A DNA stretch of 64,000 nucleotides, from positions 44,781,402-44,845,401 of the forward strand of contig OV121086.1 in assembly GCA_921293015.1 (NCBI GenBank), read 5' to 3'. How positions within the stretch are numbered: the stretch's first letter is position 1; each line of letters starts with the position of its first letter. A program made the position numbers and the translations under genes. Positions 18,024 through 64,000 of this stretch are shown in pieces. The DNA is from Phorcus lineatus. Taxonomy: Eukaryota > Mollusca > Gastropoda > Trochida > Trochidae. The notes beneath the pieces were generated by a model, which was not told where the DNA came from, searched no databases, and worked only from the letters and a program-made list of their open reading frames with translations.

Positions 18024-32933
<14,910 letters not shown>

Positions 32934-36275: not shown

Positions 36276-36851
36276 TTGTTGGGGGAGGTGGATGTCCTTC
36301 TGAAACTATCTTTTATTTCTTTTATTTGTTGGGGGAGGTGGATGTCCTTCTGAAACTATCTTTTATTTCTTTTATTTGTTGGGGGAGGTGGATGTCCTTC
36401 TGAAACTATCTTTTATTTCTTTTATTTGTTGGGGGAGGTGGATGTCCTTCTGAAACTATCTTTTATTTGTTTTATTTGTTGGGGGAGCTGGATGTCCTTC
36501 TGAAACTATCTTTTATTTGTTGGGGGAGGTGGATGTCCTTCTGAAACTATCTTTTATTTGTTGGGGGAGGTGGATGTCCTTCTGAAACTATCTTTTATTT
36601 GTTTTATTTGTTGGGGGAGGTGGATGTCCTTCTGAAACTATCTTTTATTTGTTTTATTTGTTGGGGGAGATGGATGTCCTTCTGAAACTATCTTTTATTT
36701 GTTTTATTTGTTGGGGGAGGTGGATGTCCTTCTGAAACTATCTTTTATTTGTTTTATTTGTTGGGGGAGATGGATGTCCTTCTGAAACTATCTTTTATTT
36801 GTTTTATTTGTTGGGGGAGATGGATGTCCTTCTGAAACTATCTTTTATTTG
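36276..36851. repeat. Minisatellite, 12 copies of a 50/41-bp unit
   Basis: The GGGGGAGGTGGATGTCCTTC word starts at 36281, 36331, 36381, 36431, 36481, 36522, 36563, 36613, 36663, 36713, 36763 and 36813. Ten spacings are 50 or 41 bp depending on whether one TTTTATTTG-type segment is present once or twice. Copies are almost identical: single changes such as GAGG to GAGA or GAGC, and TTTC to TTTG, mark subtypes. This implies recent amplification. No reading frame runs through it. Confidence 0.97.
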
Positions 36852-37991: not shown

Positions 37992-40900
37992 TTATGAAAC
38001 TGTTTTGTTCCTCGGATCATACTCCTTTGGAATAAGTGGATTCCGGAACAAGAGCTTCTTGGTTTTCTTTGCTTTCTCATCAGCTGCCGGAACTATTTTC
38101 CTGAACTGTTCAACCTGTGATCGAGAGAGGTGGTCGGCAGCTTGGTTGCGTACACGGTTCACGTAATGTGCCCTCAGATGGATGTTGTACTTGCGAGACA
38201 TCTCCATTAAGATCTCATACAGCTTCTTGAACCGTTTGATTGTTTCAATGTCATATACATCTGACGCTGCCAAATTAACAAGTTTCACAGCATGCTGATT
38301 GTCAGACCAACAGAGGACTTTCTTATTGACAAACTTGTGTTTCCATGTGTAGCAAGAGGCAATAAGGGCGTAAAACTCATAGAAACACGAGTCGAAAGTG
38401 TTTTTCGAAATTCCATTTTGCTTGACCCGAAAATGCTCTGGCCATGATTCCGAAATCCAACGTACACGCTCATCAGTGTTTGTAAGAAGGTAGGCGCCAA
38501 ATCCCAGCCTGGAGGCATCAACAAATATCTGGTGGTCGGGGCTGAAGTCCTCAATAATGGGTTGGTAGTGGTTGTGTGATGCAACGTACTTAGCAAGTCT
38601 TCGAATACGTTCAGTTGCCAGACTGTTATCAGACTCTAGAAGCCGCAGCATCTGAAAAGAAGTTGTAAAAGATGAAACAAATTTTGGGACCTATTTTGAG
38701 TTTAACCATGCATATTTCAAGAAACAAAATGTATTTTCAAATATACAAAGTATGTTAATCCTTATTGTAGAAAGTTGCTGAAATTTCTGAATAATTCTTG
38801 TTTACTAGGATCTTGCACAAACAGATTTTAGATACATTATCAACACAATAAGCAACCTCTCCCTACTAACCCACTCTAACCATGTTTTACTCGTGGAATT
38901 ATTAGTGCCCCATTCACACAGCTTTCACTATGTGATAAACCCAAGAACTTTTAATGCAAAAATATTTCATGTCTCGCTCTTTTTTAATCATCAAGTGACA
39001 TTAAAGTTAACTGTTTCATGTACAAGACTGTCTTTTTATTACATATGGTGGCAAGCGACCCTAAAAAAGCTTATCAGTTTTAAAGTTGCAGAATTAATTT
39101 TTTTTTTTTATCAGAATATCCATATATCCATACTGATTCAATTAAATTTCATGGTTATCCATCTTGATAAGCACCACTCTTTCTAATTTTATAACTGTCC
39201 AGGAAGCTTAATAAGGCAAATACAGTCATTGTTTCTCAGAAAAAGGTTAGAAGTTTTAGGTATTTAGTTAAATTTTTTTTTAAATCATGAAAACTTTCGT
39301 CTATTTTATTCTATTCAAAATTAAATTGTTGAAATAATCCTTGTAACAAATGACGTTTCTATTCTTTAAAAGTTGTGTATCACTGTCATTTTCTAGTTAG
39401 GTTATCTTTTGCAAGCAATGAACGCTGGTGGTTTAAATGGGTGATTGATAAGCGGTGATCCCAACAGAAAGAAAGATTGAAATAAAATCAAATGCATTTA
39501 TTTTCAACATAGTCCCTCATTATTGCGAATTTTATGAGGGGGCAACTTGAATTTGTTAGTATTAATTTTCCTATCCTGCATCCTAGATTGGACGCTGCAT
39601 TGTCCCTTTGTGTTTAAACCATATCATAATGAATTGCTTTTAATGTAAGACACAGATACATAATGACAATCTGAGACTTAATTTGGTCCATTTTCTGATA
39701 AAACAATCTGCATTAGCCTAACCAGTCATAACCAAAACACTTTCAGCAAATGTATTGAAAGTTGATGATAGAGTACGAAGATTATCGGCGTGATGCTCAG
39801 TTTTCCAATTGTAACTCACTACTTATTAATCACCCCTCAATTTACACTGAGTCAATAAACGTCTTTTTATACATTTTATAATTACAGTTTGAACATCAAA
39901 ATTTCACAAAAAATACAGCAATTCCAGCAAATTAACGAAATCTTGCTACAGAACAAACACATTCAGACATGTTTCTGACATTGATACAAAAAGATGAAAA
40001 TACTCTGAGCCTGCAAGCCTAAAGTCATAATTCAGGTGGAGAGACTATCACACTTCTCACCTTCAGCTTTATACAAGCAAGGAGACACACAGCATAGTGA
40101 GAACTGTGAAGGGTTGGAGCGACAGCGCTCACTGAGAATATGGACGGCCAGGGCACTGTAAGTTCTGACTTCCATCCCCCAATCCCTTGGTCAGTCTTGT
40201 ATCGACTGGACACAAACTTGTACATCTGAGGCTGGGCACTGACCAGTTTCTGTTTGTCCACTATAGTGTCCAGCATGCTCAGAACATGGCTCTTTGTCAC
40301 TGGGTTCAAGCATTGCTTGTCCATATCCCAGTGGAGAACTCCAACACTCTGGAAAAAAGGATTGATTACTTATCAACAGGGAGAGGTTTTTTAATAAAAC
40401 TGAAAATGATACTCGTGATTTCAAGAAATAATGTTTGAAACAATTCTATTAAACAGATTTGGAATTGTACACTTTTAATCTTCATAGCTAAAATAAAAAG
40501 TCTGAACCTTTACCAGGGATTAGGAAAGGCAGGGGCCATGGGCCATTTTGCACATTGGATGAAAAAATGGCCCATTTAAATTTGAAATTTTACCATTGCT
40601 ACTAAGGGGAATGATCCATTCAAAATTCTGAAAATGACTAAAATCTCTAAAAATGGCCCATTGTCAAAGGTGTCTTTCCCAATCCCTGATTTACTTTCAA
40701 CAACAATGACCTTCAATCTCAACTCTCTTTTTTTTGTCACAGACCCAAGATGAAGTGTTCAGTCTTTCAAACCTGATAAAGCCCTGGTTAGCATAAGCAT
40801 GGCCTTACTCACGCCAGCTCCAATAACTACCTAGTTCAGACCCTGTGGAATTTTTCCAACTTTTCTGTGCTTGCCATCCTGGAGCTAAATTGCAACACAT

Positions 40901-42540
40901 CTTGATATTCCAATAAGAACTCTTATGAGAATTGTAATTTTTTGCCGGAAAGAGAGCACGCAAATCACTGATTTTGGCAGGTGAGCAGCAAGTCCTATGA
41001 ATTAGCTAGCTACAGACTAGCGCAACTTAAAGTCATGAGAGGAAAGTGATCATAGTATCGAGGGCATTATTACTTACATGATAGAGTTGACAGGCAAGAA
41101 GGTAAGCATTTTCCTCGGCCTGGCTGATGCAGGTGTGAGTACCAGTGAAGTTCATCTGGTGCGGCCATCTTACATGAAGTCGTGCCTTCCAGTAGGCGCC
41201 ATTCAGTCGTGGAATGTACTCAATATGAGGCTCAATAATCTGACCACTCACAACAAAGGGTTTCAATAGATCTAGGACAATCTTCTTTGGGTTACAATAT
41301 TTTTTCTTCAAAGTGTCAACTGCAAAAACAGATACAAGACAGAGTTCAATTTACATTGTTTGTAAATAGGATTTTTTCGAATAATACAATTTCAGAGTTA
41401 TAAACTAGTGTATGGTTCTGTAGACGCCAATTTAAGTATGTCTTCCCATATTAAAAAAATCTTAACTTTCTGTATAAACAGTTATCAAAGATCCTCAATA
41501 CCCTTTTTCACAAACTCGTATTCCGGCCAGGGTTTACATCACACTTTGGTATGTGCGTAGATGTCTAGTTATATGCTGGACTACTGTAGTGCTAGACACG
41601 TCAAGATGAAATCACGTATTAATATAAGTTTGACAATTTACTAAGGGTTTCGTTATAAAATTTATGTTGCTCAATACTGCATTAGTCTACCTTCAACCAC
41701 TCTCTAAAATACAGATAGCATTATAATAGTAATAGCTTTCTTATACCGCGCATATATCCATGACAAGGCATGCTCAAAGGGCCATGAGTATTATTACCCT
41801 GGAGGGATAGTACTTTCGGTGCTGCCGATTAACAAGCGCTCCGCGCGACCATATAGGTTCATACTTCCCCCTTGTTCAAGTCCCCATTTGTACAGCTGGG
41901 TGAACCGAGTGCAAAGTGGATGAAGTGTCTTGCCCAGGGACACAACACAGGATGAGACCCAAGTCACAAATTTTTGGTGTCTCCACTGGGATTCCAACCC
42001 GGGTCTCTGGCGTGAGACTCAGAGGCTAGAAAGCTAACCACTACACCACTGTGCTCCACAGAACGAATTTTCAAAATTAAACGAACTAGGCTTAGAATAT
42101 GATTCGCATTCATAGTCTAATTGGTTATTGTTTTATGTTCTTTATCAAGGTAGTCATGAACAGTCTAACTGGTACGTCCTGCTTCATGATAGTACTAAAT
42201 AGTAGTGGATTAAATAGGAGCCTTTGATGAAGTCTAGATCCTAATTCAGCAAGTATAGATTTGACTGCATCCACATGATATTAAGAGCCCAAAAGAAAAA
42301 AAGAACATTATGGATGAAGGAACAGTAGATTATTTCATGTACTAAATTTTAGTCTTTAGTCTAACCTTCATGTTCACTTGGAACTTCGAAAATCCTGGTA
42401 GTTTTGGAAGTGGTCCGGAAATATCTCACTGTCACGTTAACCTTTACATTGAATTTATGAAAATTGATATTCACTGGACGAGACCGTAGGTTTGAACTTA
42501 TTTGTTTAGAGATCAAAAGTGGTAATCGCTTGTCAAACAT
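37992..42540 (-). CDS. Mitochondrial-leader, dsRBD-like, retroelement RNase H fusion protein
   Basis: Four minus-strand exons join in phase: 42540-42366, 41319-41078, 40348-40061, 38651-37992 (1365 nt, 454 residues), all GT-AG. Residues 1-45 are rich in Arg/Lys/Ser and almost free of acids (VRYFRTTSK), like a mitochondrial presequence. Exon 2 encodes a dsRBD-like stretch (WKARLHVRWP, then QAEENAYLLACQLYH); exon 3 encodes a second (WKSELTVPWP, then HYAVCLLACIKLK). The first recalls the divergent dsRBD of DHX30. Exon 4 is an RNase H fold: FVDASRLGFGAYL (D280), YEFYAL (E327), WSDNQHAV (D352) and NQAADHLSR (D408), so the catalytic set is complete. SDNxxAV and ADHLSR are typical of RNase H in DIRS-like retrotransposons rather than host RNase H1. 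There is no reverse transcriptase, recombinase or terminal repeat nearby, and the splice acceptor falls just before the domain, so this looks like a host gene that captured it. Function (for example hybrid processing in mitochondria) is inference. Confidence 0.72.
41735..42059 (-). repeat. Full-length tRNA-derived SINE
   Basis: On the minus strand the head reads GTGGTGTAGTGGTTAGC (A box) and later GGGTTGGAATCCC (B box, one change from GTTCGAATC). The body includes CCCTGGGCAAGACACTTCATC, a word common to invertebrate SINEs, and ends ATATGCGCGGTATAAGAAAGC. It lies in intron 1 of the RNase H fusion gene. The head is close to a tRNA but the element as a whole is a SINE, so I do not call a tRNA gene. 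Confidence 0.8.
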
Positions 42541-43274
42541 GACAAAACATTCCAGACGGTTTCCTCAACCACCGGCCGCCATGATTGTTGTTTATGTCAC
42601 GTGACCGTTTATGACCTATGACCCCTCAATGTACACGCCCACTTTCCTGGACCTTATAATTCATCAATTTCTCTCGCTTATATCTATGAATTGTTTAAAT
42701 TTCAGCTATAACAGATAACATAGGTGGAATAAGAAATATCCAAACCACATGTTTGCAAAAAGACTTACACTGAGTGCTATGATAACTTTCTAATTACAGA
42801 AATTACTGTTATATATATTTTAATATAATTGATTCGACGATATTCAAGTTGTAAGAGATTTATCTAATTTCACGCATCACACATGAACTCGTAAAAACAC
42901 TATGTCGCTTAGTTACATCAGAAATTACAACATTTCGTGAAAGTTCTCCGCATTTCTGTCCGTACATGCAGAGTCCGAGGTTAACCGTGTACGTACTCCA
43001 CGTCAACTACTATTTTTAGCACACCGGAATCTGATTGTGAGTTGCACAAGCATTACGAGGCTCCTGACTATATACAAAGCCGTTGCGAATTGCTGACATA
43101 CACATTTGGCGAAAGATTAACTCTGTGACTAAAGGTAAAAATTTATCATTATATTACTATATAAATGAAACAGTTATAAACAGTTGTATTTAATGGAACG
43201 TAATATAGATCACGGAAGTGTTCAGACGTGACCATAACTTGACTCGACTCTCCATATATATATAACTTTACAAT
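42541..43274. promoter_or_regulatory. Divergent (bidirectional) promoter region
   Basis: The start codons of the minus-strand RNase H fusion (42540) and plus-strand RBR ligase (43275) are only 734 bp apart, head to head. The 10-bp palindrome GTCACGTGAC (42596-42605) contains an E-box. Two short upstream ATGs precede the minus-strand start: a six-codon uORF at 42582-42565 and one at 42550-42533 that overlaps the main ATG out of frame. Transcription starts are not determined. Confidence 0.5.
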
Positions 43275-44910
43275 ATGATGTCGGCGACCAACGTTAATTC
43301 TACCCCGGCCCGGGGCCGAGATGGGCGTCCACCCACCCTTTTCACCGTTAACGTTACCAATATGAGTGACGTTGAGGCTAGAGAAGCTTTGGATGTGTTG
43401 GATATTTCAGAATGGGCGACAGCATTAGAGTCCGTCAACCTGTCGCTCAATAAAAAGCGACGTTGGGACACTCTATACTATCTGAAAAGTGACATTGAAA
43501 AACAACAGTTTAAAGAGGAGAACTTTCACGTGCATGTTGTGGAGAGACTATGGATGAACAGACGTGCCAACTGTGAAGAGATTACAAGCAACGCTGACCT
43601 GAAGAGCAATTTTGGGAGTTCGGTATTCTTTGAACCTGACTCTCTGCTTTATCAACCTAAACCAGAGGCAAAACATGAAAGGCCACGTGTGCATTTTGGA
43701 AGAAAAGATTTTCGTAAAACCACAAAGAAAGATAGTAAAGTAAAAAAGAAGAAAGAAGCCAAGGTTGGTGAAGTTGCGGAGGAAAGCGCGGATACTCAAC
43801 ATCCAGAGCTAAGAGTGGAAGTTGTAGGTCCAACGGATCAGTGTATTAATCCCCCAACGACGTTGACGTCACGACGCCGGAGAGAGCGTGTTCAACGAAT
43901 AAAAGATGCAGGTAAATAAAGTTTTTCATGTCAATTGTGGCTTTACTCTTATTGCTAATATTTGATATCATGAGAATGAATGAATAGTCTGTATAATGAC
44001 ATGTATCAATCCCAAAGATCACTGTATCACTATGTTTGATATCACCACAGGTTAATGATTTTCTGTTTATTCTTTCAGTTGTTTCACGTGTAAGCCCTTA
44101 TTACAAGAATCTGCTCAATAACTCGTCCAATCAACATACCTCAAATAGCTGGGGTGTTAACGATTGGGGTGATGACTGGGGATCCGTACCAGCGCAGAGG
44201 GCTGATATCGAGAGAAAACCGAAGCCAAAAACAGTTCCAGAGTCTTCCAAACCATCGTTAGTTCAGTGGGATTCAGACTCATATTTGACCTTTGACCCCG
44301 CGGAGGAGGAGGAAGAGGAGGAGGAGTATCTCAACGCGTGTAAAGAATACGTGATTGAATATGCACTATCATTTCAGGATTTCATTTTCTCCGCCCCCCA
44401 AAAACGGGGGAAGAGAAGAAAACCAAAGAAGGATAAGACTGAACCCCTCTCACACAAGGGGAAAATCGTGTACAAGCCAAAGCTTAGTCAGGATACGCCA
44501 TCAGAGACTGCACTCGAAGAACCAGAAACTGTTTCTTCAGAACCGGGAAAGTTTGAAATGGACGTTAACTTAAAAAAGGAGGACATTTCTATAAAATCAC
44601 TGACTCAGCTCTTTGGAGAGCGTTATATGGAATGTGAGTGCCGTCCAAGACGATTTCTGCTGGACTTCACAAGGTCTGTTCGAGAAGTCCCGCACTGGCT
44701 GCACTGGCCTGTGATTTATAAATATCGTTCTTCCAGACGAGGTCGCTCTTACCGAACTATTTTGAAGAAGGATCGTCAGGACGTGAAGACAGCCGGATAC
44801 TTGGTTCTCGAGGAGAAACAAGATGGACGCTTTAGGTAAGGAGATACCTTTCCAATGAAAACTGATATGTCAATTAATTCTTAAAAAATACGCCTTTCAT
44901 TCATTCATTC

Positions 44911-44984
<74 letters not shown>

Positions 44985-47900
44985 TTTTTTATTTAGTTAT
45001 TTATCTATCTATTCAATTACTTATTCTATTTATTTTTCCTAATCACTGCAGCTTGGGTCTCGAAACTGACGCGAAAATTGATGTTCAGATGTTGAAAAGG
45101 AGGCTCGCTGTTCCCGATGTATCGCCAAAACAGATCACTGAAACCTTATGCGATGTTCTTTCGAAAAATATTGAGAAGAAGTGAGTTTGTACGAATTTCA
45201 AAATCGTACTTTTCGAATGTTCTTTATTGCATCATGTAGGATGATAATCGACACGGTGGGGTCTTAAATGCCGTAGTGTTTGGACAATGCATGGTAGGCC
45301 TTAATTGAATATGAATAAATTAAAAAAAGAAACCATAGCGAAATCAAATTTGATAGATTTACTTTAGAAGGATTTGCAAATATTTGTAACTACTACAAGG
45401 TTACTAGGTTTCTAGGTTACTATAATATAATTTTAAAAATACCGAACCAAAACAGCCAATAGAATATCACACGATGATATGTATTTATTGCACATCAGAA
45501 AATAAAATATAATGTTTTGTTGATTGATATGTCATAATTACCGATACATATCGTAAAAATGCAAATTTTTCGTTTAGTGACCCAGTGTTTTATTGTTACA
45601 AATATTATCAAACCTTCACAACAGTTGAAATATATCTTTAAGATAGTCGTTTTTACCTCTATCTCAGGGTTATAGCGAAGTATGCGGATATTGTGGCAAG
45701 GCAGTCTGGAAAAGCGTTCAAAATATTGAGGAATAAACTCAACTGGCCGGAAGCTGATTCCTACTTTCCGAATCCATTTCCGGAAGTCCCAAATATGTCA
45801 GAAAGAGAGCGGGTACGTTCTGGTTAGCCGTCAAATGCAAATTCATATATTTATGACACTCTTACTCTCGATAACCCCACGATTGTTTCTCATAAAAGAG
45901 CCACTCCGTGATTTTCATAACATATTATTTTCCTTTGATACGAACTTAAATGTCATATGTGGTGATATAAAATCAAAACATCTTAAACTTTCATGTCCAA
46001 AAGACATATATACAAATACTGGTTTTCGATGAAAATCTTAAAAACAGCTTTATAAATGCACAGAGGTGTACATATCACGTCCCATATACATGGATACTAG
46101 TTATATATCCTAACAAACACTATCAACTCCTAATTGTCCTCCTGACTGTTTTAGATTAGTCTCCAAAATATTTGACGCGCGTGACTGTCCAGTTTTCGAT
46201 CATAATTGCGACGTTCTACCTTCATATTGTCACTGTACAAAACAAATTAGCTTTAAAATGTTTCTTTTTGGTAACATTCGATACTTCGCGATCGAATGAC
46301 ACCACTGATTAAATTTGGCATATATGACTCCAACAAGTCACGGAGTGGCTCTTTAAGAAGGGTGTTGAATATCAAATGAAATTATGAGGTGAGATTCCTC
46401 TCTGTTTGATAAACCATAACGTTGAGCGGAGAGTACTTGCTGATTGCTCAATTAGTTCGACATTGAAAATATCTAGCAGATCATCGATATGCTGTTCATC
46501 AATGAAGACGACATTAATTCCATACACTAAATCCTATCAGGATTAATGTTAGATATATTCTCTTAATTTTCTGCGCCTGATATGATTTATTTCATGAATA
46601 AAATGAGTCTTGATATTAAGGAACCATATCTATTTATATAGCCACCGACAGAGGAATTGGATATTCCTGAATGTTGCAACATCTGTTTTGCTGACATCGA
46701 TGTGACGTCATCTGATTCGCGGGGCCTCGCTCTGAACAAGTGTGGACACTGGTTTTGTATTGCTTGCTGGAAAAATCACGTGACTGCGTGTGCGAAAAAT
46801 GGATCGACCAAAATTATGTGCCCTGTAAGTTTCAACTATAGAAGATTGATTAGAATATTAACTTTATCTAGCGAATACTCACTGAAAACATGTTTAATGT
46901 GTGTTTAAAGTAACGGAACAGTCGTTAGAAATTCGTCAATCCTTCTTAAATGACTACTTCTTTTTTACATGAACCACAACATCAATGTCAAGTAAAACAA
47001 TAAAGCCAGATGAAATAAAATAAACAACATGTTCCTTAGATGTCAAAGGTAATGCATAGCTAAAGGTATAGTTCGGAGAAATAACGTATACTGTGAACAT
47101 TATTTCAACTTGGGCATATATCCGTTATCACTCGTTCCTCTTTGGGAAAGTATCGGGGAATAAATCGAGGGTAACAATCGCTACGGGGTTGACGCGCATT
47201 ACATCCAGATATTCAAACACAAGTCTTTGAAGCATATTATAATTTAACGAGCTGCTTGTGAAGATTATCTTTCTGATATTTAAATAATTGTTTACGACTT
47301 CAGGAGTTCGAGTGCAAGGTGCGAGTTGATGAAGGAACTCTGATATCACTGTTGACCTTGGACGACCTCAGAGTGTACAGATCAAGAATGGATGACATCA
47401 CTATTAGCACTTCCGGGTCCAAACTCTACTGCCCGAGACCCGGATGTGAACGCATTGTATCTCTATATGAAGGTACTTTTCAGAAAATCTAGTAGTAGTT
47501 CTCAAACAATATGTTACATTACAAGGGAGATAAGAAATTGTTCTTGTTTAAGATATAAAGGTATCTTCAACAGCTGCACGCATTCCTAGTGCAGCTGTTT
47601 TTAGCAATCTTTTCCATTTTATGCACAACCGACCGTTACGATTAATGATAAACCTCAGTGCTAACTTTCTCATTATGGATTACAGGTCAATTATGAAGAA
47701 TGAAAGTACTAATATTTAATTGCATCGATGGAAAGCTCTATGAGTGCCAGTATCCTCTTTTGCCCTAATAGCAATTTTGAAAGCGAAATTGTCTGCTATA
47801 ATGTCTTCGAATCTTGAAAACCCGGTGATCTATACCGAGTTCACGTCCCTTTTTGTTTATTACCTGAGGAGTACAATGTAAAAATATGGCATTCTCAATA

Positions 47901-50827
47901 ATTTCAGAAGATCTCCCTAATTATTTTTGTCCAGTTTAACATTCGAGTCCCAAAAAAATGGCCAGAAAACGACAAGCCTGTCTTGTGACGGCCTGCTACA
48001 GTGAATTCACGAACGAATTTGATACATAGCATCACAAACACAGAAATTGGTGAACTCACAATAAAATATTTTTAAACATATACAAATATCGAGTTTTTAT
48101 TACAAAATGGGTAAAACTTCAAAATACGATCTCTTTCAGAGAGCCGAGAGACGGGCTGTGTGAGTTGTAAGTGCGGTGCAGAGTTTTGTATCAAGTGTCT
48201 TGGACATGCGCATTGGCCGGCAGACTGCTGTCATTTGAGACGATACCAAGAAAACCAGAGACGATATGGTAGGTTTTACAACGGCTTATTGACGAATAAA
48301 TATATTTCTCATCCTTGTCTCATCGTTCTGTAATATATAATTCTATATGCCTAGAAAATCAAATAGGGTTACCTGATATCAACCGCCTATCCTCCAACTA
48401 TAATGACCCACATAACCATGCTGATAACTTCAGTAAACGTGAATGGTCTTCCGAATCGGATATTCCAATTAAGGGTTGATTGTTTCCACCAGTCCGCTCT
48501 TTCATTATGCTGAACTCTTGTCTCAAAATAACTTTTTCTTTGGCCCGAACTTCAGATTATTTATGTTTAAGTCTTTGATACTTGACATGTTTCTCTTGTG
48601 ATGGGACCTCATCATGAGGTCATATGTGTTTGAACTTGTGACCTTGACCTTGACCCTGGGAGAATATCCTAAAAAGTTTGACCTTTGGCATAACTTTGGA
48701 GTAGTCAATACTTTTCCATCTTGCTTGTTGAGAACTTTCAAGTTATATTATTTTCAAATGATATTATCGTTTAAACTTGTGACCATGAACTTTAATTTAG
48801 GATCATTTCACGACAATTTTTCCTGGGTCATCATAGTAACTTTCGGTTAGTCATTGATTAGACTTGTGATGTAAATGAGGTCATAATGTTGGCCTCGGTG
48901 TTGCAAGTAGAGAGTTTAGCGTTTGGTATTGTGTATGCAAATAGAAAGTTTAGTGTTTGGTATTGTGTATGCAAATAGAAAGTTTAGTGTTTGGTATTGT
49001 GTATGCAACTAGAGGTGATTGTGAGCACCTGCACCATTTTCCAATCTACCTGAAACAACTCTGAACACTTGTCCTTTAGAAACTTGCTACTCTAGGTTTA
49101 AGAGAAGTAAAAGTAGGAGGTTACAAATACCGTGAAGGAGGTTTAATGCAATGATTTTATTGAAGGCACTTTGTCATAGGAAAAGCTTCAGTATACGGAT
49201 TTTAGCAATAACTGAGAGTAATGCCTTTACAAGGAACGCAACTAACCCCAACCTCTCTGCAGGTGACGAAGACGTGATGTCTTGGGATATTGGCGCGAAA
49301 TCAGTGATGAAGGGAAAGCGTTGCCCTGAGTGCAACTACTTTATCGAGAAGAACCAGGGCTGTCCCATGATGTCATGCGTTTGTGGGCACGAGTTCTGTT
49401 GGCAGTGCATGAAACCAGCCAACGGCCACGGATACTCGCCAGACTGTTATGCTAAGTCCGACAACTCCGGAACAAAGGTAATGCCCTTTTGATATTTCTT
49501 ACGTTTGTAGACGATCTTTTCAATCATTTAAGTTTTTCATTTTTGATGTTTCACGTTTGTCTTATTTTTTTCTTTAAACAACACTGTCTACTTATCTATC
49601 CACCGTGCCAGCGTTCCTTCGAATCTCTCCTCAACAAACCTTTTGAGAATGGTTATGTAGACCATCGTTTCGGGAGTAACTAGTTAATTCAACGTCCTTT
49701 TATTTTCACCTAAAATTATGACGCCATTTTCTGTCTTGCAGAACATACAGGAGGTGTTCATCGAGGATCTGAACAAACACCCTCAGTCAAGGTCAAGGAC
49801 ATATATCATCGCTCTGACCCGTCGTCATCGACAAAATCACCGGCAGAGGGAGATGCTGGAACGCTTTGTACCGAAGATGAAGAAAGAACTACAGGTAATT
49901 TGTCTTTTGTTTCTTATCTCCCAACAATTCATCGATTTCTCTTCATATCATACACAAGGCTTCTATAAAAAAAAGAAACAGGACCATGTAGAAATTTGAT
50001 GACCTTTCAGGGTTTTCGCAGGTCAAAACTCGAAATTTCAATTTCAAGTTTACAAAACAAATCTATTGGGAAACGCGAGGCCAAGTTGATTTTCCCTTTA
50101 AAACTTACTGAATATTCTTTGTGCACAGAGGCTTGTTGGAAGACAGATTCTGCTGAATAAACGCGGTGTTGTACCGACAACTAAGAAGACGACCCATCTT
50201 GAGGAAATGTGTCACCTGCTTGTTGAGGTGGAAACCAGGGAGGGAATGCACCTACTTGATTGGGGTCTCGCTCTCATCTCAGAGGTAAATATGTCGCACA
50301 TAAAACTGTTTATGAAAATAAACGTAATACAACTATACAATTATTTCTTAAAGTTATGCATCAATTCGACAAGTGAATTTTGTCTTTGAAATTATTATCT
50401 TAACAAATGATGTCAATCTTCTCTCAGCTGCATCACGTGATCGAGTACAGCGCTGTCTTGATTGACATCCACCATGACGACCATCGCCTTGGTAACACAG
50501 GAAAACTCGCAAGTACTCTTGTGTTTCTCGTTGAACGAATGGAAGAGGTAAGTTGACTTGGCATAAAATGTAAATGTTACATATTGTGAAAATAAAGGAT
50601 CTTCGTCAAAATAATCTTGATCGTTTCAATAAATGTCATATTTTACAGGTTAATATGCAATAGTTTACAGGTTTAACTGGATTGTCTTACAGGTTTATCA
50701 GTTAGGACTCCATCAGGACATGTCGAGTGTTCCCGCCAAGCTGATGAAACATGCAAACATCGCAGTGGAGATCCTGTCTAGGTTAAAAGCCCTCACCAAG
50801 TATTATCCTAAAGACCTGGATGCATGA
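43275..50827 (+). CDS. RBR-type (RING1-IBR-Rcat) E3 ubiquitin ligase
   Basis: Twelve exons join in phase: 43275-43911, 44079-44835, 45052-45180, 45668-45812, 46642-46824, 47304-47472, 48140-48268, 49263-49477, 49742-49894, 50129-50284, 50428-50547, 50693-50827 (2928 nt, 975 residues). RING1 begins near 568 (CNIC, later CGHWFCIACW). The IBR follows (LYCPRPGC, later CKCGAEFCIKC, about 650-700). Rcat spans about 735-780: CPEC, then NQGCPMMSC with C750 at the site of the catalytic cysteine of Ariadne/Parkin-type ligases, then CGHEFCWQC. RBR enzymes pass ubiquitin from E2 to this cysteine before the substrate. The N-terminal 560 residues hold a lysine-rich region, a WGVNDWGDDWG motif (237-247) and an acidic Glu run; I do not recognise a named domain. 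The C-terminal 185 residues are helical and unlike the standard Ariadne domain to my eye. The start may be ATG 43275 or the adjacent ATG 43278. Confidence 0.9.
44897..44986. repeat. ATTC / ATCT microsatellite
   Basis: Three to four ATTC units followed by about 18 uninterrupted ATCT units within intron 2 of the RBR ligase gene. Confidence 0.97.
48630..48660. promoter_or_regulatory. Three contiguous TGACCT-type half-sites
   Basis: TGTGACCTTGACCTTGACCC contains three hormone-receptor half-sites (AGGTCA on the other strand) spaced one base apart, in an intron of the RBR gene. The surrounding sequence resembles a dispersed molluscan repeat, so it may be repeat-derived rather than a working enhancer. 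Confidence 0.25.
48903..49012. repeat. Tandem repeat, 34-bp unit x 3.2
   Basis: Units start at 48903, 48937 and 48971, with a partial fourth at 49005. The last two full units are identical; the first differs at about three positions. Intronic, RBR gene. Confidence 0.95.
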
Positions 50828-53133: not shown

Positions 53134-53794
53134 TGAGACCTAGGGACGATAACAGTAGTAAAGAGATACAAGTTTTTTTAAACTCTTAAGCTCTAATTTT
53201 CTCTCATTAAGCTCTCAATATTTTTTGCTATTGTTTAGCAACAGTTGGCAAAAAATTTATATTTCTTTCATAAAATGTATATCTCAAAGAAATTGTGAAT
53301 AACTTCTACAGAATATGTCTCTCGAGTACTTTCAGGTTTCTTGTCCCCTTCTGATAAAACATTTTTTTGGGTACACCTTTGCTCACGCAGTTGATTTTAC
53401 AAAAATGAGATCAATTAATAACTTCTTTTTTAGGATAAACGTGTTTGGAAAATAAACTACCTATTTTTCAATCAATGAAATAGAGTTATGAAAGAGATTA
53501 GCAGCATAGGATATTTACAGTTTAAGCTTGTTATACAGTAATTGTTTTGAAGCTAGTTTGATTAAAAAACAAAGTTCCAATTTATTTTAGGAAAAAAAGT
53601 TGCCTCTGCAATATTCTGTCTATTTCTTTATTGTTACTTTTATTGCTGAATAGAATACAAGCGAATGCAACATAGGCGACAGTTAGTTGTTCTAATTTCA
53701 ACCGGAATGAAGGTCAGTTAATTCTACAAGACACCGTACAAAGTTCCATACTAGTAATATTTTATCTTTTCAGGAATAATTAATAAATGTCATT
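53134..53794. repeat. Older spacer of the tandem array (unit 1)
   Basis: Aligns with 58367-59016 through words such as ACTCTTAAGCTCT, TTGCGCACGCAGTTGATTTTA-like and GTTATGAAAGAGATTAGCAG, with many substitutions and small indels. It is clearly more diverged than the gene-bearing units that follow. Confidence 0.8.
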
Positions 53795-54012
53795 AAAACA
53801 TCTCATGTCCAAACATTAGTTTATCATCTTAGCTAGAAAATTAACCTTACATTTGCCCAAAGTGAAGCCATGAGTTGTGTTCATGACACAAAAGTCAGTT
53901 AGTCACAGATTTAAAAAGTGCCAGAGAGCAAACAAAAAACAAATCATGTCGATGTATCAAACAACTCATTTATACAAAAACAATCATCATGACGATTACA
54001 GAGAGCAACATT

Positions 54013-57000
54013 TCAGTAGTCCAAGATGACGTTCTCTGCGGGGTAGAAGCCATACTTCTTAGGAGCACCAACTCTGCTCTGGTACCAGCCAAAAGCCATT
54101 CCTCTTATGTCCATTGGAAACTTCTGCTTCACTTGCATTCCTGTAGGCAAAGTCATAACCGTAAATTTATGCATAGAGAAAATATTTCAGATACAAGAAA
54201 CCTTATAAAGCTTTAAAAAGCTGACACTGTTCTTGGACCATACAGGAATTACATATCTAGTCTGATAGCTTATATGAAAAAATATCCTCAAAGATCACAT
54301 TGTTCCATCAAAAGGTTTTGTGATCTTTTGAGATGCAATAATTTGTATCTATTGTCAAGGTCCCAAAGGGTTAAAACTGACCATGATGACCTTTCCGTTG
54401 GTCAGTAACAAAGGGTATTCACACAATGTAGAAAAATACAATGCATTTACTCACCCTGTTTGAGTCGAAGGTGCTCTGGATGGGTTGCTTTGAACGGGGA
54501 GACAACTCTTACATAGACATTGTCCATGAATCTGACATCATCATCAGAGCCTTTAAGCAGTCCTGCAGCTGGGGGCGCAAAATGTATTTTCACAATCTTA
54601 GTTTCAACAGTTGTAGTGTACTACATACAAGTGTCATTTACCTGTTTTATTTAATTATAAGTCATTCATATAACCAGTCACGGATAAGAAAAGTGAGTGT
54701 AAGAAGTTCACGAAAACGTTTATTGATGGGAATGTTTCTATCTATGAGTTATTGGTAATGAATGGGACCATTGCTAAGTTACACACCAATTGAGGTATCA
54801 GATTGCTTGACATCAGAGGTACATTTGACAGAGAGTAAACCAGTTGAAACCCACTGTCTGCGAGGTGTCCTTGTTGAGCCGACAGTATCTACGATGTTCT
54901 GAGCCATTTTCATATCCACAATCTGAGCCTTCTGAGCACTTTCTGTTTCAGAGGCCCTCATCAGAGGCGTGGGCAGCTTCTCTAGAAAGCCAAATCTTTT
55001 GTGCCAGGCCTGCAGTTGAACAGAATGATTAGAGGAAAATCAGACATAACATTTTAATTCATTATCGCTAAGAGGCTTTTATCTAATAGGTCCCAGAAGA
55101 AATTATTCTCACCTGCACATCTGGGTAGATGTATGTCCGAGAAGTTTTGTCAAAGGTGGTGTTGACAATATCAGCCATTTCAACAATGATCTCATCTAGC
55201 TTTGCCTGTAATGGTTCACACCTGAAAAACAGTCATAGTTCAATAGAAACAATTACTAAATTAGAATGAGAAATTTATAAAGTATCAATGATATCCAACA
55301 GATATTTGTTTATAACATTAAGGGCATTCAAAATATTTCAATGAAACTGATTCATGAAATGAATTGTGAAATAGTTTAAGCTTGAAAGAAAAGAACAGAG
55401 TTTTTTTACATCCAGTTCATGAGTATTCTACCTGGTAGAGCTTTCTGAAGATCTCAGATCGGTGAGAACTACAAAGTCTCTAAGACAGGAGACGAGAGTC
55501 TAAGACAGGAGACGAGAGTCTCAATCTGACTTTCATGGAAGTCGCAGGCTTCTTGACATGCAAGCTCAGACCTCTGAGAAGGGGCAAGGGCATAAAGAAA
55601 AGAATTGAAAGAAAGAGAAACAAAAAGTAATGGAAATAAAGGACAAATGAATTTAAATTGAAACTATTCTAAGAAAAGAAAATGAAAGAATGAAGAAGGC
55701 ATGATCAGAGACCAATAATAAAAAAACACAGTTATATGCAAAATATTACACAGGCAAACTGAATCACAGAACTCAAAATGCCCTAACAGTCAGTCGCATG
55801 TCATCCAGAGAGCCACTGCAGGCAACAATTGCTTGTTTCACCTCTCACCTGCAGGAGTTTGCCGATGAGCTGCTGTTCTTCTTTCATCATCTCTTCATAC
55901 TGGAGCTTCAGCTGATGTTTCTTCTCATTCTGCTTTCTCACTTTCACTTCCAGTCTCTGCAGTTTTTCTGCCTTCTCCTTCCTCAATCGGTGATGTTTTT
56001 CATTTGTGTCCTGCAGTTCCTCTTGCAGCTTCACGATTCTATTCTGGTACTCAGAACAACCAGCCAGGCTCTTGATACTCTTCTGTTGTTCATGTGAGAG
56101 TAGGCAACAGAAAACAGACACATGGGAAAATCTGGCCAATACAATACATTAAAAAAATCATTTAAGACTCTGCCATAGGAACTAAATATAACGTTAATGT
56201 TTTCAGATTAAAACTGCTTTCCTGAAGTTTCAAATGGAAGTAACTTTTAATTCTAAAATCGATTTTGGACATTCTGTCAGACTGAGACTTACCTCCTTTA
56301 TTTCCTGAAGAGTTTTTAAACAACCCATGTGCTGCTTCCTGAGAGAATCCAACTCACGACATTGGCTCTCGTGTTTAGAAACAATGTCCTGACAAGTGGT
56401 CAATCTAAAACAGGTAGGAAACAAAATCAATTTTCATAATTTGTTACTTGTCAAAAGTGATATGCTTTATTGCACTTTCTGAAGTTCTTTAAAGTTTTTG
56501 ACAACATGCATTATAATATTTGTTGACTGTGACTTGCTATAACTGACAAATGCTCTCTATCTAAAATGAATGGTACTTGTCTGGTTCAAAAAGTGAAGTT
56601 CAACTTTAAGTTGTTGTCAACTTACTTGTTTATCATTCCAAGTGGCCCGTTCTTTGACTTCAGCTCGTAGGACTTTGTAAGGACATCGTAGGCCTCTTGT
56701 TCAGTAGAGGTGATAAACGTGTTGGCAAACTCAAAGAAATGACAACTACTTTCTGCAAAAGATAAAGTAATCCAGATATTGTCCAGCGACATTAACACTG
56801 AGGGTGTCAAAACTACAATAAAATCATCTTCATATGGAAAATACATCTACTATTCCTAGCAAGAATTCCCAAACTATGAGCATGAGGACGATACCAATAT
56901 TTTCTTCTGGCTTGTTGGTTAGATCAGTCGCTATTTCATTTGTTTATTAATAAATGACAATAAACGAATACAAACATTTCAGGTAAGGGCTACAATACAT

Positions 57001-57844
57001 AATATAATCCTGAGAAGGAAAGGGAGATGCCAGCTTTAAAAATTAATTGTGCGTTAAACTTTGATACAAACTAGATAAGACAGATTACCCTGATCACTGA
57101 AGCCAGCAAGTTTCTTCTTCATATCACAAGTCCATTGCAAGAGATTTTCTCCAAACTGCTGGTTGATACCGACCCTTGACTTGAAGAAGTCTGTCCAGAA
57201 ACCAGAAGATTGATCTCTGCAACATAGATTGTATTCAACACCGCTCTGGGAAATATTTATTGCTTTATCACATTGTACGCTTTGGAGATTAATTATGCGC
57301 ACGATAAGTTTATTTGACATAATTCACTTTGATAATACAAATTTATTAATTGAACGTTTTTGGCATAATCAGGACAACAAGGCAGCCTTTGCCTATAGTC
57401 TATAGGTTCTAAGCATGAACAACAATTACAAAGAGGTAATGAATAACGAAATATTTTTTGAAGATTGAAAGTTAAGTAGGTTGTGTAAAAACTAGGGGTT
57501 TATCTATCAGAAAACCATTGTAGATAAAAGTGACTAACTTAGGTGTACCTACCCAAGCACATTAATTAGAGTATCACGACAAAGAATTCTATGTTTCAAC
57601 TTTCAGTGTCAAAATTGTGGTGATTTGAAACTAAGGGTCGGACATACCTACAAAACGGAACGCAATCTCTTGGTGCCATTCTTCTATTGAAAATGGCTTC
57701 CAACGAATTTGATCAGTAATAGTCCAAACTTAAACTTCAAATGCCAATTTTAGAAAACGTAGCACTGTCAGCTCAATAATTGATTACTTACAGATTCTTT
57801 GTCTTATGAAGTCGTTGGAAATCTGCAAGAGGGAGAGTATTCAT
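54013..57844 (-). pseudogene. Coiled-coil/F-BAR-like protein with SH3-like end, copy 1, frameshifted
   Basis: Ten minus-strand exons: 57844-57792, 57216-57089, 56752-56626, 56404-56293, 56082-55849, 55573-55432, 55221-55113, 55009-54787, 54562-54455, 54140-54013. Exon 6 carries a perfect 20-bp tandem duplication (TAAGACAGGAGACGAGAGTC at 55481-55500 and 55501-55520). Twenty is not a multiple of three, so the frame shifts and meets TAG at 55471-55469. The product would stop near residue 260, keeping the coiled coil but losing the helical tail and SH3-like domain. All splice sites remain intact, so the lesion is young; a truncated protein could still be made. An assembly or sequencing error in a near-identical tandem repeat is an alternative explanation. 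Confidence 0.75.
55481..55520. repeat. 20-bp tandem duplication that breaks the copy 1 frame
   Basis: Two exact copies of a 20-bp unit. Copy 2 of the gene has this unit once (around 61094-61113), and the single-unit version gives a continuous frame, so the single form is ancestral. Confidence 0.95.
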
Positions 57845-57849
57845 ATCTA

Positions 57850-58060
57850 GAATAGGAGTTGAATGCAAAATCGTTTAGAAAAAGTCAGAGGATTCGTTTA
57901 GCGTCGACTAGGTTCGGTTGCCAAGCGGATGTGATGGAAGACAGAAGCGTGACGTCATATGCATTATGACATCACAGACTTTTGACTGGTTCCCGTCTTA
58001 TTGTACGTGCTCTCGTTACACCCTTCTAAAAGGTTGTAACTAAGAGCAGGGATCCAGTCA
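57850..58060 (-). promoter_or_regulatory. Candidate promoter of copy 1 with CRE
   Basis: A perfect TGACGTCA palindrome lies at 57950-57957, about 106 bp upstream of the ATG, with a TGACATCA variant near 57967-57974. The same pair occurs upstream of copy 2. Transcription start unknown. Confidence 0.4.
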
Positions 58061-59016
58061 ATTGACATACATTCGGAAAAGATCGGTATTGCAAACAAAG
58101 GTGACCAAAATCAGTAATTTGGTGACACCATTGTGGAGGGCCGCTTTTGTTCAATCAAAAAAATCTCACTTCAAATAAAATCAATCTTTTGCTAAGGGCT
58201 GATTGTTTGGAGTAAAACGGATGTGTATAATGTTCATACTCGGTGTTTGGATAACAGAAAAAACGAGTTTTCACTAACGTTCAGTTCAAAAGAAATTGAG
58301 AGTGATCTCCCTTGACTGGCGGCTACACTAAACTTTTGTACTCAAAGTGAAAACATTCATGCGTTCGAGACCAAGGGATGACAACAATATTTAAAGGGGT
58401 TTTTTAACTCTTAAGCTCTCATTTTCTCTCAATAAGCTCTCATGTTTTTTCTATTGTTTTGACAAAGTTGGCAAAAATTAAATATTTCTTTTATAAAATA
58501 TATCATATCTCAATGAGAGATATCTAATTGTGCAATATGTCTTTCGTGTACTTTCATGTTTCTTGTCCCCTGTTAATAAAACCTTTTTGAGTGCATCATT
58601 GCGCACGCAGTTGATTTTATAAAATAAGATCAATTATTAATAACTCCTATTTGTAGGATATATGTGTTTATACAATGAACTACCTATTTCCAATCGATGA
58701 AATAGAGTTATGAAAGAGATTAGCAGCCTATAATATGTAGGTAGGATATTTACAGTTTAAGCTTGTTATACAGTAATTGTTTTCTAATAACATTTGAAGA
58801 TAGTTTGGTTATAAAATAAACGTTCCAAAATAATTTAGAAAATTATAGTATAGTTTTCTGCCCATTTCCTTACTGTTACTTTTATTGCTGAATAGCAAAC
58901 ACGCAAATGCAACAAAGGCGACGGTTAGTAGTTCTTGTTTCAACGAGAATGTAGGTCAGTTGATTTGACAGGACACCGTAGTTCATTACTAGTAATATTT
59001 CATCTTTTCAGGAACA

Positions 59017-59405
59017 ATTTTCAGCCTGACATGATATTTTAGTAGCACCTATCAATTGGAGATGCGGAAACTCATATGCTCACTAATGAAAAGTCCTTAA
59101 TATCTTGGACCTGGAAGTGATGAACTGATCACCGCACACCTTCTCTATCTGGCGTAGGGATACACAAACGTTGCAGGCTGACTGCCATGCATGCTTTCTT
59201 TCAAACAGATATTCTGATTCCCATGCCTAATATAACTTTTCAGTTGGGGATAAAACAGAATCCAACCACCCCGTGCTCTCTGAAGTGGGAACTCTTTGGC
59301 CCCCGTTCACAAAAACCCATGCATACTGAGACCATGAATGAGAATGTATTCTTTGTTATGAATCGCCTCTGTCATAATTCATCCCACTGTAGGACCAAAT
59401 TGTCA
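59017..59405. other. About 390-bp segment present only in spacer 2
   Basis: The spacer before copy 2 aligns with the earlier spacer on both sides, but this block is absent from the equivalent point near 53780. It has no terminal repeats that I can see and no convincing coding exon. It is either an insertion here or a deletion there. Confidence 0.65.
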
Positions 59406-59625
59406 TAAAAACATCTCATGTCCAAACATTGGTTTATCATCTTAGCTAGAAAGTTAACCTTACATTTGCCCAAAGTGAAGCCATGAGTTGTGTTCATGAC
59501 ACAAAAGTTAGTTAGTCACAGATTTAAAAAGTGCCAGAGAGCAAACAAAAAACAAATCAAGCAGATGTATCCAACAACTTATTTATACAAAAACAATCAT
59601 CATGACGAGTACAGAGAGCAACATT

Positions 59626-62600
59626 TCAGTAGTCCAAGATGACGTTCTCTGCGGGGTAGAAGCCATACTTCTTAGGAGCACCAACTCTGCTCTGGTACCA
59701 GCCAAAAGCCATTCCTCTGATGTCCATTGGAAACTTCTGCTTCACTTGCATTCCTGTAGGCAAAGTCATAACCGTATATTTATGCATAGAGAAAATATTT
59801 CAGATACAAGAAACCTTATAAAGCTTTAGAAAGCTGACACTGTTCTTGGACCATACAGGAATTACATATCTAGTCTGATAGCTTATATGAAAAAATATCC
59901 TCAAAGATCACATTGTTCCATCAAAAGGTTTTGTGATCTTTTGAGATGCAATAATTTGTATCTATTGTCAAGGTCCCAAACGGTTAAAACTGACCATGAT
60001 GACCTCTCCGTTGGTCAGTAACTAAGGGTATTCACACAATGTAGAAAAATACAGTGCATTTACTCACCCTGTTTGAGTCGAAGGTGCTCTGGATGGGTTG
60101 CTTTGAACGGGGAGACAACTCTTACATAGACATTGTCCATGAATCTGACATCATCATCAGAGCCTTTAAGCAGTCCTGCAGCTGGGGGCGCAAAATGTAT
60201 TTTCACAATCTTAGTTTCAACAGTTGTAGTGTACTACATACAAGTGTCATTTACCTGTTTTATTTAATTATAAGTCATTCATATAACCAGTCACGGATAA
60301 GAAAAGTGAGTGTAAGAAGTTCACGAAAACGTTTATTGATGGGAATGTTTCTATCTATGAGTTATTGGTAATGAATGGGACCATTGCTAAGTTACACACC
60401 AATTGAGGTATCAGATTGCTTGACATCAGAGGTACATTTGACAGAGAGTAAACCAGTTGAAACCCACTGTCTGCGAGGTGTCCTTGTTGAGCCGACAGTA
60501 TCTACGATGTTCTGAGCCATTTTCATATCCACAATCTGAGCCTTCTGAGCACTTTCTGTTTCAGAGGCCCTCATCAGAGGCGTGGGCAGCTTCTCTAGAA
60601 AGCCAAATCTTTTGTGCCAGGCCTGCAGTTGAACAGAATGATTAGAGGAAAATCAGACATAACATTTTAATTCATTATCGCTAAGAGGCTTTTATCTAAT
60701 AGGTCCCAGAAGAAATTATTCTCACCTGCACATCTGGGTAGATGTATGTCCGAGAAGTTTTGTCAAAGGTGGTGTTGACAATATCAGCCATTTCAACAAT
60801 GATCTCATCTAGCTTTGCCTGTAATGGTTCACACCTGAAAAACAGTCATAGTTCAATAGAAACAATTACTAAATTAGAATGAGAAATTTATAAAGTATCA
60901 ATGATATCCAACAGATATTTGTTTATAACATTAAGGGCATTCAAAATATTTCAATGAAACTGATTCATGAAATGAATTGTGAAATAGTTTAAGCTTGAAA
61001 GAAAAGAACAGAGTTTTTTTACATCCAGTTCATGAGTATTCTACCTGGTAGAGCTTTCTGAAGATCTCAGATCGGTGAGAACTACAAAGTCTCTAAGACA
61101 GGAGACGAGAGTCTCAATCTGACTTTCATGGAAGTCGCAGGCTTCTTGACATGCAAGCTCAGACCTCTGAGAAGGGGCAAGGGCATAAAGAAAAGAATTG
61201 AAAGAAAGAGAAACAAAAAGTAATGGAAATAAAGGACAAATGAATTTAAATTGAAACTATTCTAAGAAAAGAAAATGAAAGAATGAAGAAGGCATGATCA
61301 GAGACCAATAATAAAAAAACACAGTTATATGCAAAATATTACACAGGCAAACTGAATCACAGAACTCAAAATGCCCTAACAGTCAGTCGCATGTCATCCA
61401 GAGAGCCACTGCAGGCAACAATTGCTTGTTTCACCTCTCACCTGCAGGAGTTTGCCGATGAGCTGCTGTTCTTCTTTCATCATCTCTTCATACGGGAGCT
61501 TCAGCTGATGTTTCTTCTCATTCTGCTTTCTCACTTTCACTTCCAGTCTCTGCAGTTTTTCTGCCTTCTCCTTCCTCAATCGGTGATGTTTTTCATTTGT
61601 GTCCTGCAGTTCCTCTTGCAGCTTCACGATTCTATTCTGGTACTCAGAACAACCAGCCAGGCTCTTGATACTCTTCTGTTGTTCATGTGAGAGTAGGCAA
61701 CAGAAAACAGACACATGGGAAAATCTGGCCAATACAATACATTAAAAAAATCATTTAAGACTCTGCCATAGGAACTAAATATAACGTTAATGTTTTCAGA
61801 TTAAAACTGCTTTCCTGAAGTTTCAAATGGAAGTAACTTTTAATTCTAAAATCGATTTTGGACATTCTGTCAGACTGAGACTTACATCCTTTATTTCCTG
61901 AAGAGTTTTTAAACAACCCATGTGCTGCTTCCTGAGAGAATCCAACTCACGACATTGGCTCTCGTGTTTAGAAACAATGTCCTGACAAGTGGTCAATCTA
62001 AAACAGGTAGGAAACAAAATCAATTTTCATAATTTGTTACTTGTCAAAAGTGATATGCTTTATTGCACTTTCTGAAGTTCTTTAAAGTTTTTGACAACAT
62101 GCATTATAATATTTGTTGACTGTGACTTGCTATAACTGACAAATGCTCTCTATCTAAAATGAATGGTACTTGTCTGGTTCAAAAAGTGAAGTTCAACTTT
62201 AAGTTGTTGTCAACTTACTTGTTTATCATTCCAAGTGGCCCGTTCTTTGACTTCAGCTCGTAGGACTTTGTAAGGACATCGTAGGCCTCTTGTTCAGTAG
62301 AGGTGATAAACGTGTTGGCAAACTCAAAGAAATGACAACTACTTTCTGCAAAAGATAAAGTAATCCAGATATTGTCCAGCGACATTAACACTGAGGGTGT
62401 CAAAACTACAATAAAATCATCTTCATATGGAAAATACATCTACTATTCCTAGCAAGAATTCCCAAACTATGAGCATGAGGACGATACCAATATTTTCTTC
62501 TGGCTTGTTGGTTAGATCAGTCGCTATTTCATTTGTTTATTAATAAATGACAATAAACGAATACAAACATTTCAGGTAAGGGCTACAATACATAATATAA

Positions 62601-63437
62601 TCCTGAGAAGGAAAGGGAGATGCCAGCTTTAAAAATTAATTGTGCGTTAAACTTTGATACAAACTAGATAAGACAGATTACCCTGATCACTGAAGCCAGC
62701 AAGTTTCTTCTTCATATCACAAGTCCATTGCAAGAGATTTTCTCCAAACTGCTGGTTGATACCGACCCTTGACTTGAAGAAGTCTGTCCAGAAACCAGAA
62801 GATTGATCTCTGCAACATAGATTGTATTCAACACCGCTCTGGGAAATATTTATTGCTTTATCACATTGTACGCTTTGGAGATTAATTATGCGCACGATAA
62901 GTTTATTTGACATAATTCACTTTGATAATACAAATTTATTAATTGAACGTTTTTGGCATAATCAGGACAACAAGGCAGCCTTTGCCTATAGTCTATAGGT
63001 TCTAAGCATGAACAACAATTACAAAGAGGTAATGAATAACGAAATATTTTTTGAAGATTGAAAGTTAAGTAGGTTGTGTAAAAACTAGGGGTTTATCTAT
63101 CAGAAAACCATTGTAGATAAAAGTGACTAACTTAGGTGTACCTACCCAAGCACATTAATTAGAGTATCACGACAAAGAATTCTATGTTTCAACTTTCAGT
63201 GTCAAAATTGTGGTGATTTGAAACTAAGGGTCGGACATACCTACAAAACGGAACGCAATCTCTTGGTGCCATTCTTCTATTGAAAATGGCTTCCAACGAA
63301 TTTGATCAGTAATAGTCCAAACTCAAACTTCAAATGCCAATTTTAGAAAACGTAGCACTGTCAGCTCAATAATTGATTACTTACAGATTCTTTGTCTTAT
63401 GAAGTCGTTGGAAATCTGCAAGAGGGAGAGTATTCAT
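59626..63437 (-). CDS. Coiled-coil/F-BAR-like protein with C-terminal SH3-like domain, copy 2 (intact)
   Basis: Ten exons in phase: 63437-63385, 62809-62682, 62345-62219, 61997-61886, 61675-61442, 61166-61045, 60834-60726, 60622-60400, 60175-60068, 59753-59626 (1344 nt, 447 residues, TGA stop). The N-terminus (SSGFWTDFFKSRVGINQQFG) recalls the start of an F-BAR domain. Residues about 60-220 are strongly helical, with heptad-rich KLQEELQDTNEKHHRLRKEK. The last 60 residues (VSPFKATHPEHLRLKQGMQV, later GFYPAENVILDY) have the ALYDF-like start, loop and YPxNYV-like end of an SH3 fold with an enlarged n-Src loop and GWYQSR where GWW is usual. F-BAR plus SH3 proteins (PSTPIP, nostrin) link curved membrane to actin; the assignment is by layout and is tentative. 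Compared with copy 1, KLQYEE is KLPYEE, and the base before the exon 4 donor is T instead of G (Glu to Asp), which weakens that splice site. Confidence 0.7.
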
Positions 63438-63442
63438 ATCTA

Positions 63443-63653
63443 GAATAGGAGTTGAATGCAAAATCGTTTAGAAAAAGTCAGAGGATTCGTTTAGCGTCGA
63501 CTAGGTTCGGTTGCCAAGCGGATGTGATGGAAGACAGAAGCGTGACGTCATATGCATTATGACATCACAGACTTTTGACTGGTTCCCGTCTTATTGTACG
63601 TGCTCTCGTTACACCCTTCTAAAAGGTTGTAACTAAGAGCAGGGATCCAGTCA
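63443..63653 (-). promoter_or_regulatory. Candidate promoter of copy 2 with CRE
   Basis: TGACGTCA at 63543-63550 stands at the same distance from the ATG as in copy 1; the whole upstream block is identical between copies as far as I can read. Confidence 0.4.
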
Positions 63654-64000
63654 ATTGACATACATTCGGAAAAGATCGGTATTGCAAACAAAGGTGACCA
63701 AAATCAGTAATTTGGTGACACCATTGTGGAGGGCCGCTTTTGTTCAATCAAAAAAATCTCACTTCAAATAAAATCAATCTTTTGCTAAGGGCTGATTGTT
63801 TGGAGTAAAACGGATGTGTATAATGTTCATACTCGGTGTTTGGATAACAGAAAAAACGAGTTTTCACTAACGTTCAGTTCAAAAGAAATTGAGAGTGATC
63901 TCCCTTGACTGGCGGCTACACTAAACTTTTGTACTCAAAGTGAAAACATTCATGCGTTCGAGACCAAGGGATGACAACAATATTTAAAGGGGTTTTTTAA

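Follow-up and report, generated by a model that had tools for sequence, protein, structure and literature searches.

Does an RNase H domain of retrotransposon type that lies behind two segments resembling double-stranded RNA-binding domains (dsRBDs) belong to a host gene of a mollusc, and if so, where did its parts come from and what might the product do? The locus that raises this question lies in a stretch of 64,000 nt from Phorcus lineatus (assembly GCA_921293015.1, contig OV121086.1, positions 44,781,402-44,845,401, forward strand), here called the window. When its four minus-strand exons are joined (Table 1), they give a single open frame of 454 amino acids (aa), all three introns being GT-AG with phases 1, 0 and 0; the initial annotation had proposed this in-phase model together with a basic leader in exon 1 and the RNase H acids D280, E327, D352 and D408, and each of these was found where it had been placed. 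The locus is almost certainly a conserved fusion gene with an RNase H of retroelement type. As for its product, the reading that we prefer, at a probability of roughly 0.53, is a mitochondrial RNase H that would act on RNA-DNA hybrids, with the pair of dsRBD folds as a placing module.

Relatives of the joined protein were sought among 3316 candidates, and 12 proteins matched at E<=1, the best at 8.8e-119. In nine of these (P0001-P0009) the dsRBD-like part is followed by the RNase H, as in the window protein, with P0005, P0006 and P0009 being without the leader or part of the first dsRBD, and the other three (P0010-P0012) show the RNase H alone. The eight relatives with a species name come from the gastropods Gigantopelta, Haliotis, Patella, Littorina, Nucella and Babylonia and the bivalves Potamilus and Mytilus; they are annotated as 'uncharacterized' or 'hypothetical', a few carrying an RNase H domain name. 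In tblastn the relatives match exons 2, 3 and 4, and the matches end close to the proposed splice sites. A profile search that scored 7995 candidates gave 12 matches, namely seven known relatives, four further RNase H-bearing pieces (P0013-P0016, of which P0014 is from Haliotis rubra) and a retroelement protein, P0017; this search missed P0004, P0006, P0009, P0011 and P0012, and the lists of relatives are incomplete. Of 3010 candidates scanned with the leader plus dsRBDs (294 aa), three matched, all of them already known, and rows of the query's own alignment were missed. The relatives are 33-45% identical overall to the window protein, and the four acids are invariant in all 13 aligned rows, as are TWKHKF (T337-F342) and the tail residues KKxKxLxFxxP. 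The initial annotation had made its case depend partly on a conserved orthologue in related species, and same-order relatives do exist in both gastropods and bivalves. This is a real and old gene, present in gastropods and bivalves at least, and it apparently arose once, by fusion.

The RNase H has many kin in its own genome. Exon 4 was compared with the 957.8 Mb of this genome, 150 of 277 candidates being scored, and there were at least 144 matches at E<=0.01, one of which is the gene itself. The next-best match, locus L010, is only 40% identical (E 5.8e-15), so that exon 4 is single-copy in P. lineatus. Besides a reverse transcriptase (RT)-RNase H frame (RVT_1), L010 encodes a tyrosine recombinase (PF00589, 1.8e-8) and, below the cut-off, a GDSL-like hydrolase (PF13472, 1.4e-5), a layout that PMC9210276 gives for amphibian Ngaro elements. 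Open RT-RNase H frames together with recombinase and hydrolase motifs were found at L010, L012-L014, L016-L018, L027, L029, L031 and L032. By pattern match, 20 of the 25 element loci read have the RNase H tail motif, and 17 and 12 of these 20 have the recombinase and hydrolase motifs, respectively; five of 20 fetched loci (L015, L019, L020, L021 and L030) were without the tail motif and were left out of the tree. The motif, SRxQxxxFRxxxPxA, follows the last aspartate and is shared by the gene and the tyrosine-recombinase (YR) elements. In a tree of 36 rows, built without P0012, P0014 and the near-copies L011, L012 and L014 and with no Ty3/Gypsy or RNase H1 rows, the 15 gene domains form one clade (100/100, stem 2.93). 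The gene clade and the YR rows are split at 100/100 from three rows of long interspersed elements (LINEs), with the bootstrap unsettled; these rows are the sole outgroup, and the tree thus shows kinship with YR elements rather than LINEs and no more. It does not fix where within the YR rows the gene clade sits, the DIRS/Ngaro fork included, and mean profile scores are 70.3 bits for YR rows with the hydrolase motif, 74.2 for those without and 11.7 for LINEs. Assignment to either DIRS1 or Ngaro was rejected because the profile means are near-equal and the tree fork is unsettled. The 'DIRS-type' label of the initial annotation thus stands as far as kinship with YR retrotransposons goes, and is too exact in naming DIRS. 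The evidence supports YR retrotransposons of the DIRS/Ngaro order as the nearest kin of this RNase H in its own genome.

The rest of such an element is missing from the locus, as had been claimed. The RT of P0017 was searched against the window at E<=0.01, as were three frames of L010 (RT, recombinase and hydrolase) and those for the recombinases of L024, L025 and L028, and nothing but the RNase H itself was matched. The gene has neither an RT and recombinase alongside nor the multiple copies that would mark it as a mobile YR element. Elsewhere in the window, on the other strand, lie RT open reading frames (ORFs) of another, unrelated kind.

The two dsRBD-like segments proposed for exons 2 and 3 were borne out by structure and profile. 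In the AlphaFold model for the orthologue from Haliotis, two a-b-b-b-a folds, the dsRBD fold, precede an RNase H fold, and the two dsRBDs align with each other in hhalign at a probability of 96.9. We take KIAA0890 to be DHX30, and 2db2 to be its first dsRBD. In profile searches of 177,635 PDB sequences, 2db2 (KIAA0890) was the top match for the whole protein (E 2.3e-4), for dsRBD1 alone (E 1.1e-4, with one prokaryotic Argonaute also met at 0.85) and for dsRBD2 alone (E 4.5e-3). The dsRBD2 profile kLKllglLdkkNnL aligns on the 2db2 segment FKGWGLLGPRNEL, through GLLxxxNxL, a motif that exon 4 encodes in the window with its opening codons. Since the dsRBD2 match continues into exon 4, the seam between host-like and retroelement-like parts lies within that exon, between aa ~249 and 269. 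The claim that the RNase H was captured as an exon behind a clean acceptor did not hold, exon 4 opening with what aligns to the end of a DHX30-like dsRBD, and we rejected this exon as a clean retroelement capsule because the dsRBD2 match extends over the first 13 of its codons. We infer DHX30 as the source of the N-terminus.

The motif R-x-[FLI]-x-x-[TSG], which we take to be the MIP motif, stands at the matching place in five of seven leaders, exactly ten residues before [RK][IV][FL][ED]VP in four of these and 13 residues before it in Patella. Composition and motif together are consistent with mitochondrial targeting. The D-E-D-D acids and the RNase H fold are both present, by alignment and in the AlphaFold model, and we think that the product would be a working two-metal RNase H. 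From these parts we infer a chain from source to role. A DHX30-class tandem-dsRBD N-terminus, consisting of the leader and two dsRBD folds with no helicase, would have been fused to the RNase H of a YR retrotransposon; the leader would import the product into mitochondria, the dsRBD-fold platform would hold it at RNA-containing sites, and the RNase H would cut the RNA strand of RNA-DNA hybrids, such as R-loops, primers or transcript hybrids. What the dsRBD-fold pair binds may be hybrids, RNA of other kinds or partners.

Several observations weigh against parts of this chain, and they are taken here beside the explanations that would make use of them. A chance splice model across a decayed retrotransposon would account for the retroelement kin of the RNase H, but nine same-order relatives, a single copy, an intact frame and invariant acids reduce its probability to almost nothing, and the orthologues and the single-copy exon 4 led us to rule it out. 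The donor of the RNase H could also have been a Ty3/Gypsy element and not one of the YR group. Scans of the window protein against Pfam and NCBIfam gave sub-cut-off matches only, and its relatives carry precomputed PF17917 or PF17919, P0016 passing the PF17917 cut-off. The gene members fit PF17917 (1.1e-6 at best) better than do the YR proteins P0017 (0.02) and L010 (no match at 0.01), which would speak for a Gypsy source if that model leans to Ty3/Gypsy. According to PMC3266345, Ty3/Gypsy and DIRS1-like elements are close relatives in their RT and RNase H; the same paper has an earlier report of DIRS1-like elements in two molluscs. The claim of YR kinship rests on the ranking within the genome, on the tail held in common and on P0017; with YR elements in the top genome places and the tail in common with them, a Gypsy donor seems very unlikely. 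The dsRBDs may likewise have come from some other dsRBD protein, DHX9/MLE-like or other, the likeness to DHX30 being convergence. Foldseek with the tandem dsRBDs put MLE first (E 2.5e-6), above 2db2, which makes DHX30 a candidate rather than an established source; the E-values for 2db2 are modest, Pfam on the dsRBDs of eight rows reached at best 0.043 (DSRM_2, one row of eight) and 0.18 (Dicer_dimer, one of eight), and the VIA structure list was filled by the RNase H part and is uninformative on this point. However, 2db2 is the best PDB match by sequence for all three profiles, for dsRBD2 through GLLxxxNxL, and DHX30 is itself described as a mitochondrial RNA granule protein. It begins with dsRBD1 and dsRBD2, and one form of it is mitochondrial (PMC8140440). 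Another donor of the dsRBDs is accordingly rated as unlikely, and DHX30 is retained in the preferred chain.

The later steps of the chain have been weighed in the same way. Classical dsRBDs have two lysines where helix 2 begins (KKxAK), and this pair is absent from both domains in all ten rows, which leaves classical dsRNA binding unsupported and makes RNA binding as such uncertain. The initial annotation had suggested a nuclease directed to dsRNA or RNA-DNA hybrids; the dsRNA part has become doubtful, and hybrids remain the substrate that we favour. With regard to import, the Potamilus leader has the motif elsewhere and the Mytilus leader has none, their first 45 residues hold three and four acids, respectively, and shuffled leaders yield the motif in 13-25% per leader. 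The same fusion might instead work in the cytosol or nucleus against retroelements, binding YR-element RNA or cutting RNA-DNA intermediates. There are known cases of domesticated retroelement domains keeping related elements in check, such elements abound in this genome, as the count of exon 4 matches attests, most of the listed frames are stop-free, and the divergence of the relatives from the window protein could reflect an arms race; yet composition and motif favour mitochondria in five of seven leaders and the active site and tail are fixed across gastropods and bivalves, which makes such a role improbable in our view. Low odds are also given to an RNase H fold that now serves to bind hybrids or proteins and no longer cuts, its active site persisting for metal or hybrid binding. 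Ten residues before D408 there is a histidine in 14 of 15 gene rows, and the window copy has a tyrosine in its place (398), with a histidine one position earlier, a point in favour of this reading. At this same place, however, tyrosine occurs in eight of nine YR rows of the hydrolase group (histidine in all eight others and in P0017) and so need not signal loss, and the four acids, which would normally drift once catalysis was lost, do not vary. Cutting of RNA-DNA hybrids in mitochondria remains the preferred reading. A fuller history can be offered tentatively, in which a DHX30 copy had its helicase swapped for a YR RNase H before the gastropod-bivalve split, giving a second, retrotransposon-born mitochondrial RNase H that re-invented the RNase H1 plan and would police hybrids on mitochondrial DNA.

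Table 1. Parts of the fusion gene and other features of the window (positions count from the first base of the window; aa, residues of the 454-aa protein)
Feature	Position	Strand	Remarks
Exon 1	42366..42540	-	Start codon and basic leader; RIFEVP conserved, aa 49-54
Exon 1 leader motif R-x-[FLI]-x-x-[TSG]	aa 39-44	-	
Exon 2	41078..41319	-	dsRBD-fold domain 1, aa ~59-139
Exon 3	40061..40348	-	dsRBD-fold domain 2, aa 140-235; C-terminal extension reaches exon 4 by alignment
Exon 4	37992..38651	-	End of dsRBD2 extension (aa 236-248), linker, RNase H, basic tail, stop codon
RNase H domain	38121..38549	-	aa 270-412; acids D280, E327, D352, D408; YR-retrotransposon kin
Conserved basic tail KAKKTKKLLFRNPL	38034..38075	-	aa 428-441, C-terminal to RNase H
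Segment of intron 1	41901..42080		tRNA-like, SINE-looking by eye
Array of a 50-base unit	36276..36851		~12 copies, beyond the 3' end of the gene
RT ORFs of another kind	23489..25061	+	RVT_1 at 23759..24313
Pyridine nucleotide-disulphide oxidoreductase exon	26273..26761	+	Within the stretch 26273..32738
Head-to-head gene	43266..49492	+	ORFs at 43266 and 44000; RING at 46642, IBR at 49136
Direct duplication	53785..58407 and 59397..64000		~4.6 kb, 99.1% identity, 5.6 kb apart; reaches the window end

The segment of intron 1 that looks like a short interspersed element (SINE) is not repeated elsewhere in the window at E<=1e-5 and has no tRNA by ARAGORN; the Rfam scan and the ARAGORN tRNA scan of the window made no calls. 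About 0.7 kb separates the ATG of the fusion gene from the putative first ATG of the 43266 frame in the head-to-head neighbour, which suggests a shared promoter region. The plus-strand pieces that follow the oxidoreductase exon, as far as 32738, are presumably thioredoxin-reductase-like, as judged by eye.

Domesticated retroelement genes are known already, and what appears to be new here is a conserved, apparently active RNase H with YR kin that is joined to dsRBDs of helicase type. The gene is an example, open to testing, of how a mobile element can give rise anew to a nucleic-acid enzyme, and a route to asking how molluscan mitochondria deal with RNA-DNA hybrids. Among the papers listed in searches of the open-licence literature, none described the gene or any fusion of dsRBDs with a YR-retroelement RNase H, the LAP2alpha domain being the nearest case.

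Among known systems, RNase H1 has the same layout of leader, nucleic-acid-binding module, linker and RNase H, with the same fold and four acids; its plan is the same but built around a different binding domain (PMC9181182). RNase H1 has a hybrid-binding domain where the mollusc protein has two dsRBD folds, and the RNase H here is nearest to YR retrotransposons of its own genome. The hybrid-binding domain (PF01693) is absent among the Pfam matches of the window protein at E<=10 and of 11 rows at E<=1, and the protein is thus RNase H1-like, not a member of RNase H1; a layout convergent with RNase H1 and made of other parts is the best reading. DHX30 is alike in its N-terminal tandem dsRBDs, 2db2 (taken to be its dsRBD1) being the best solved sequence match, whereas the mollusc gene has an RNase H in place of the helicase core, with no helicase among the Pfam matches of the 454-aa protein at E<=10, and has no helix 2 lysine pair. 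With RT-RNase H frames of the DIRS/Ngaro order, such as that of L010, the gene shares ADxLSR and the SRxQxxxFRxxxPxA tail; unlike those elements, it is without RT or recombinase in the window, is spliced with host-like exons and is single-copy. PMC4495291 describes the capture of DIRS1-like GAG in mammals, in the LAP2alpha domain of TMPO and ZNF451. In LAP2alpha, as in the mollusc gene, a sequence of the DIRS order was captured in the large last exon of a host gene, but it was there a mammalian GAG-like ORF, and here it is the RNase H enzyme domain in molluscs.

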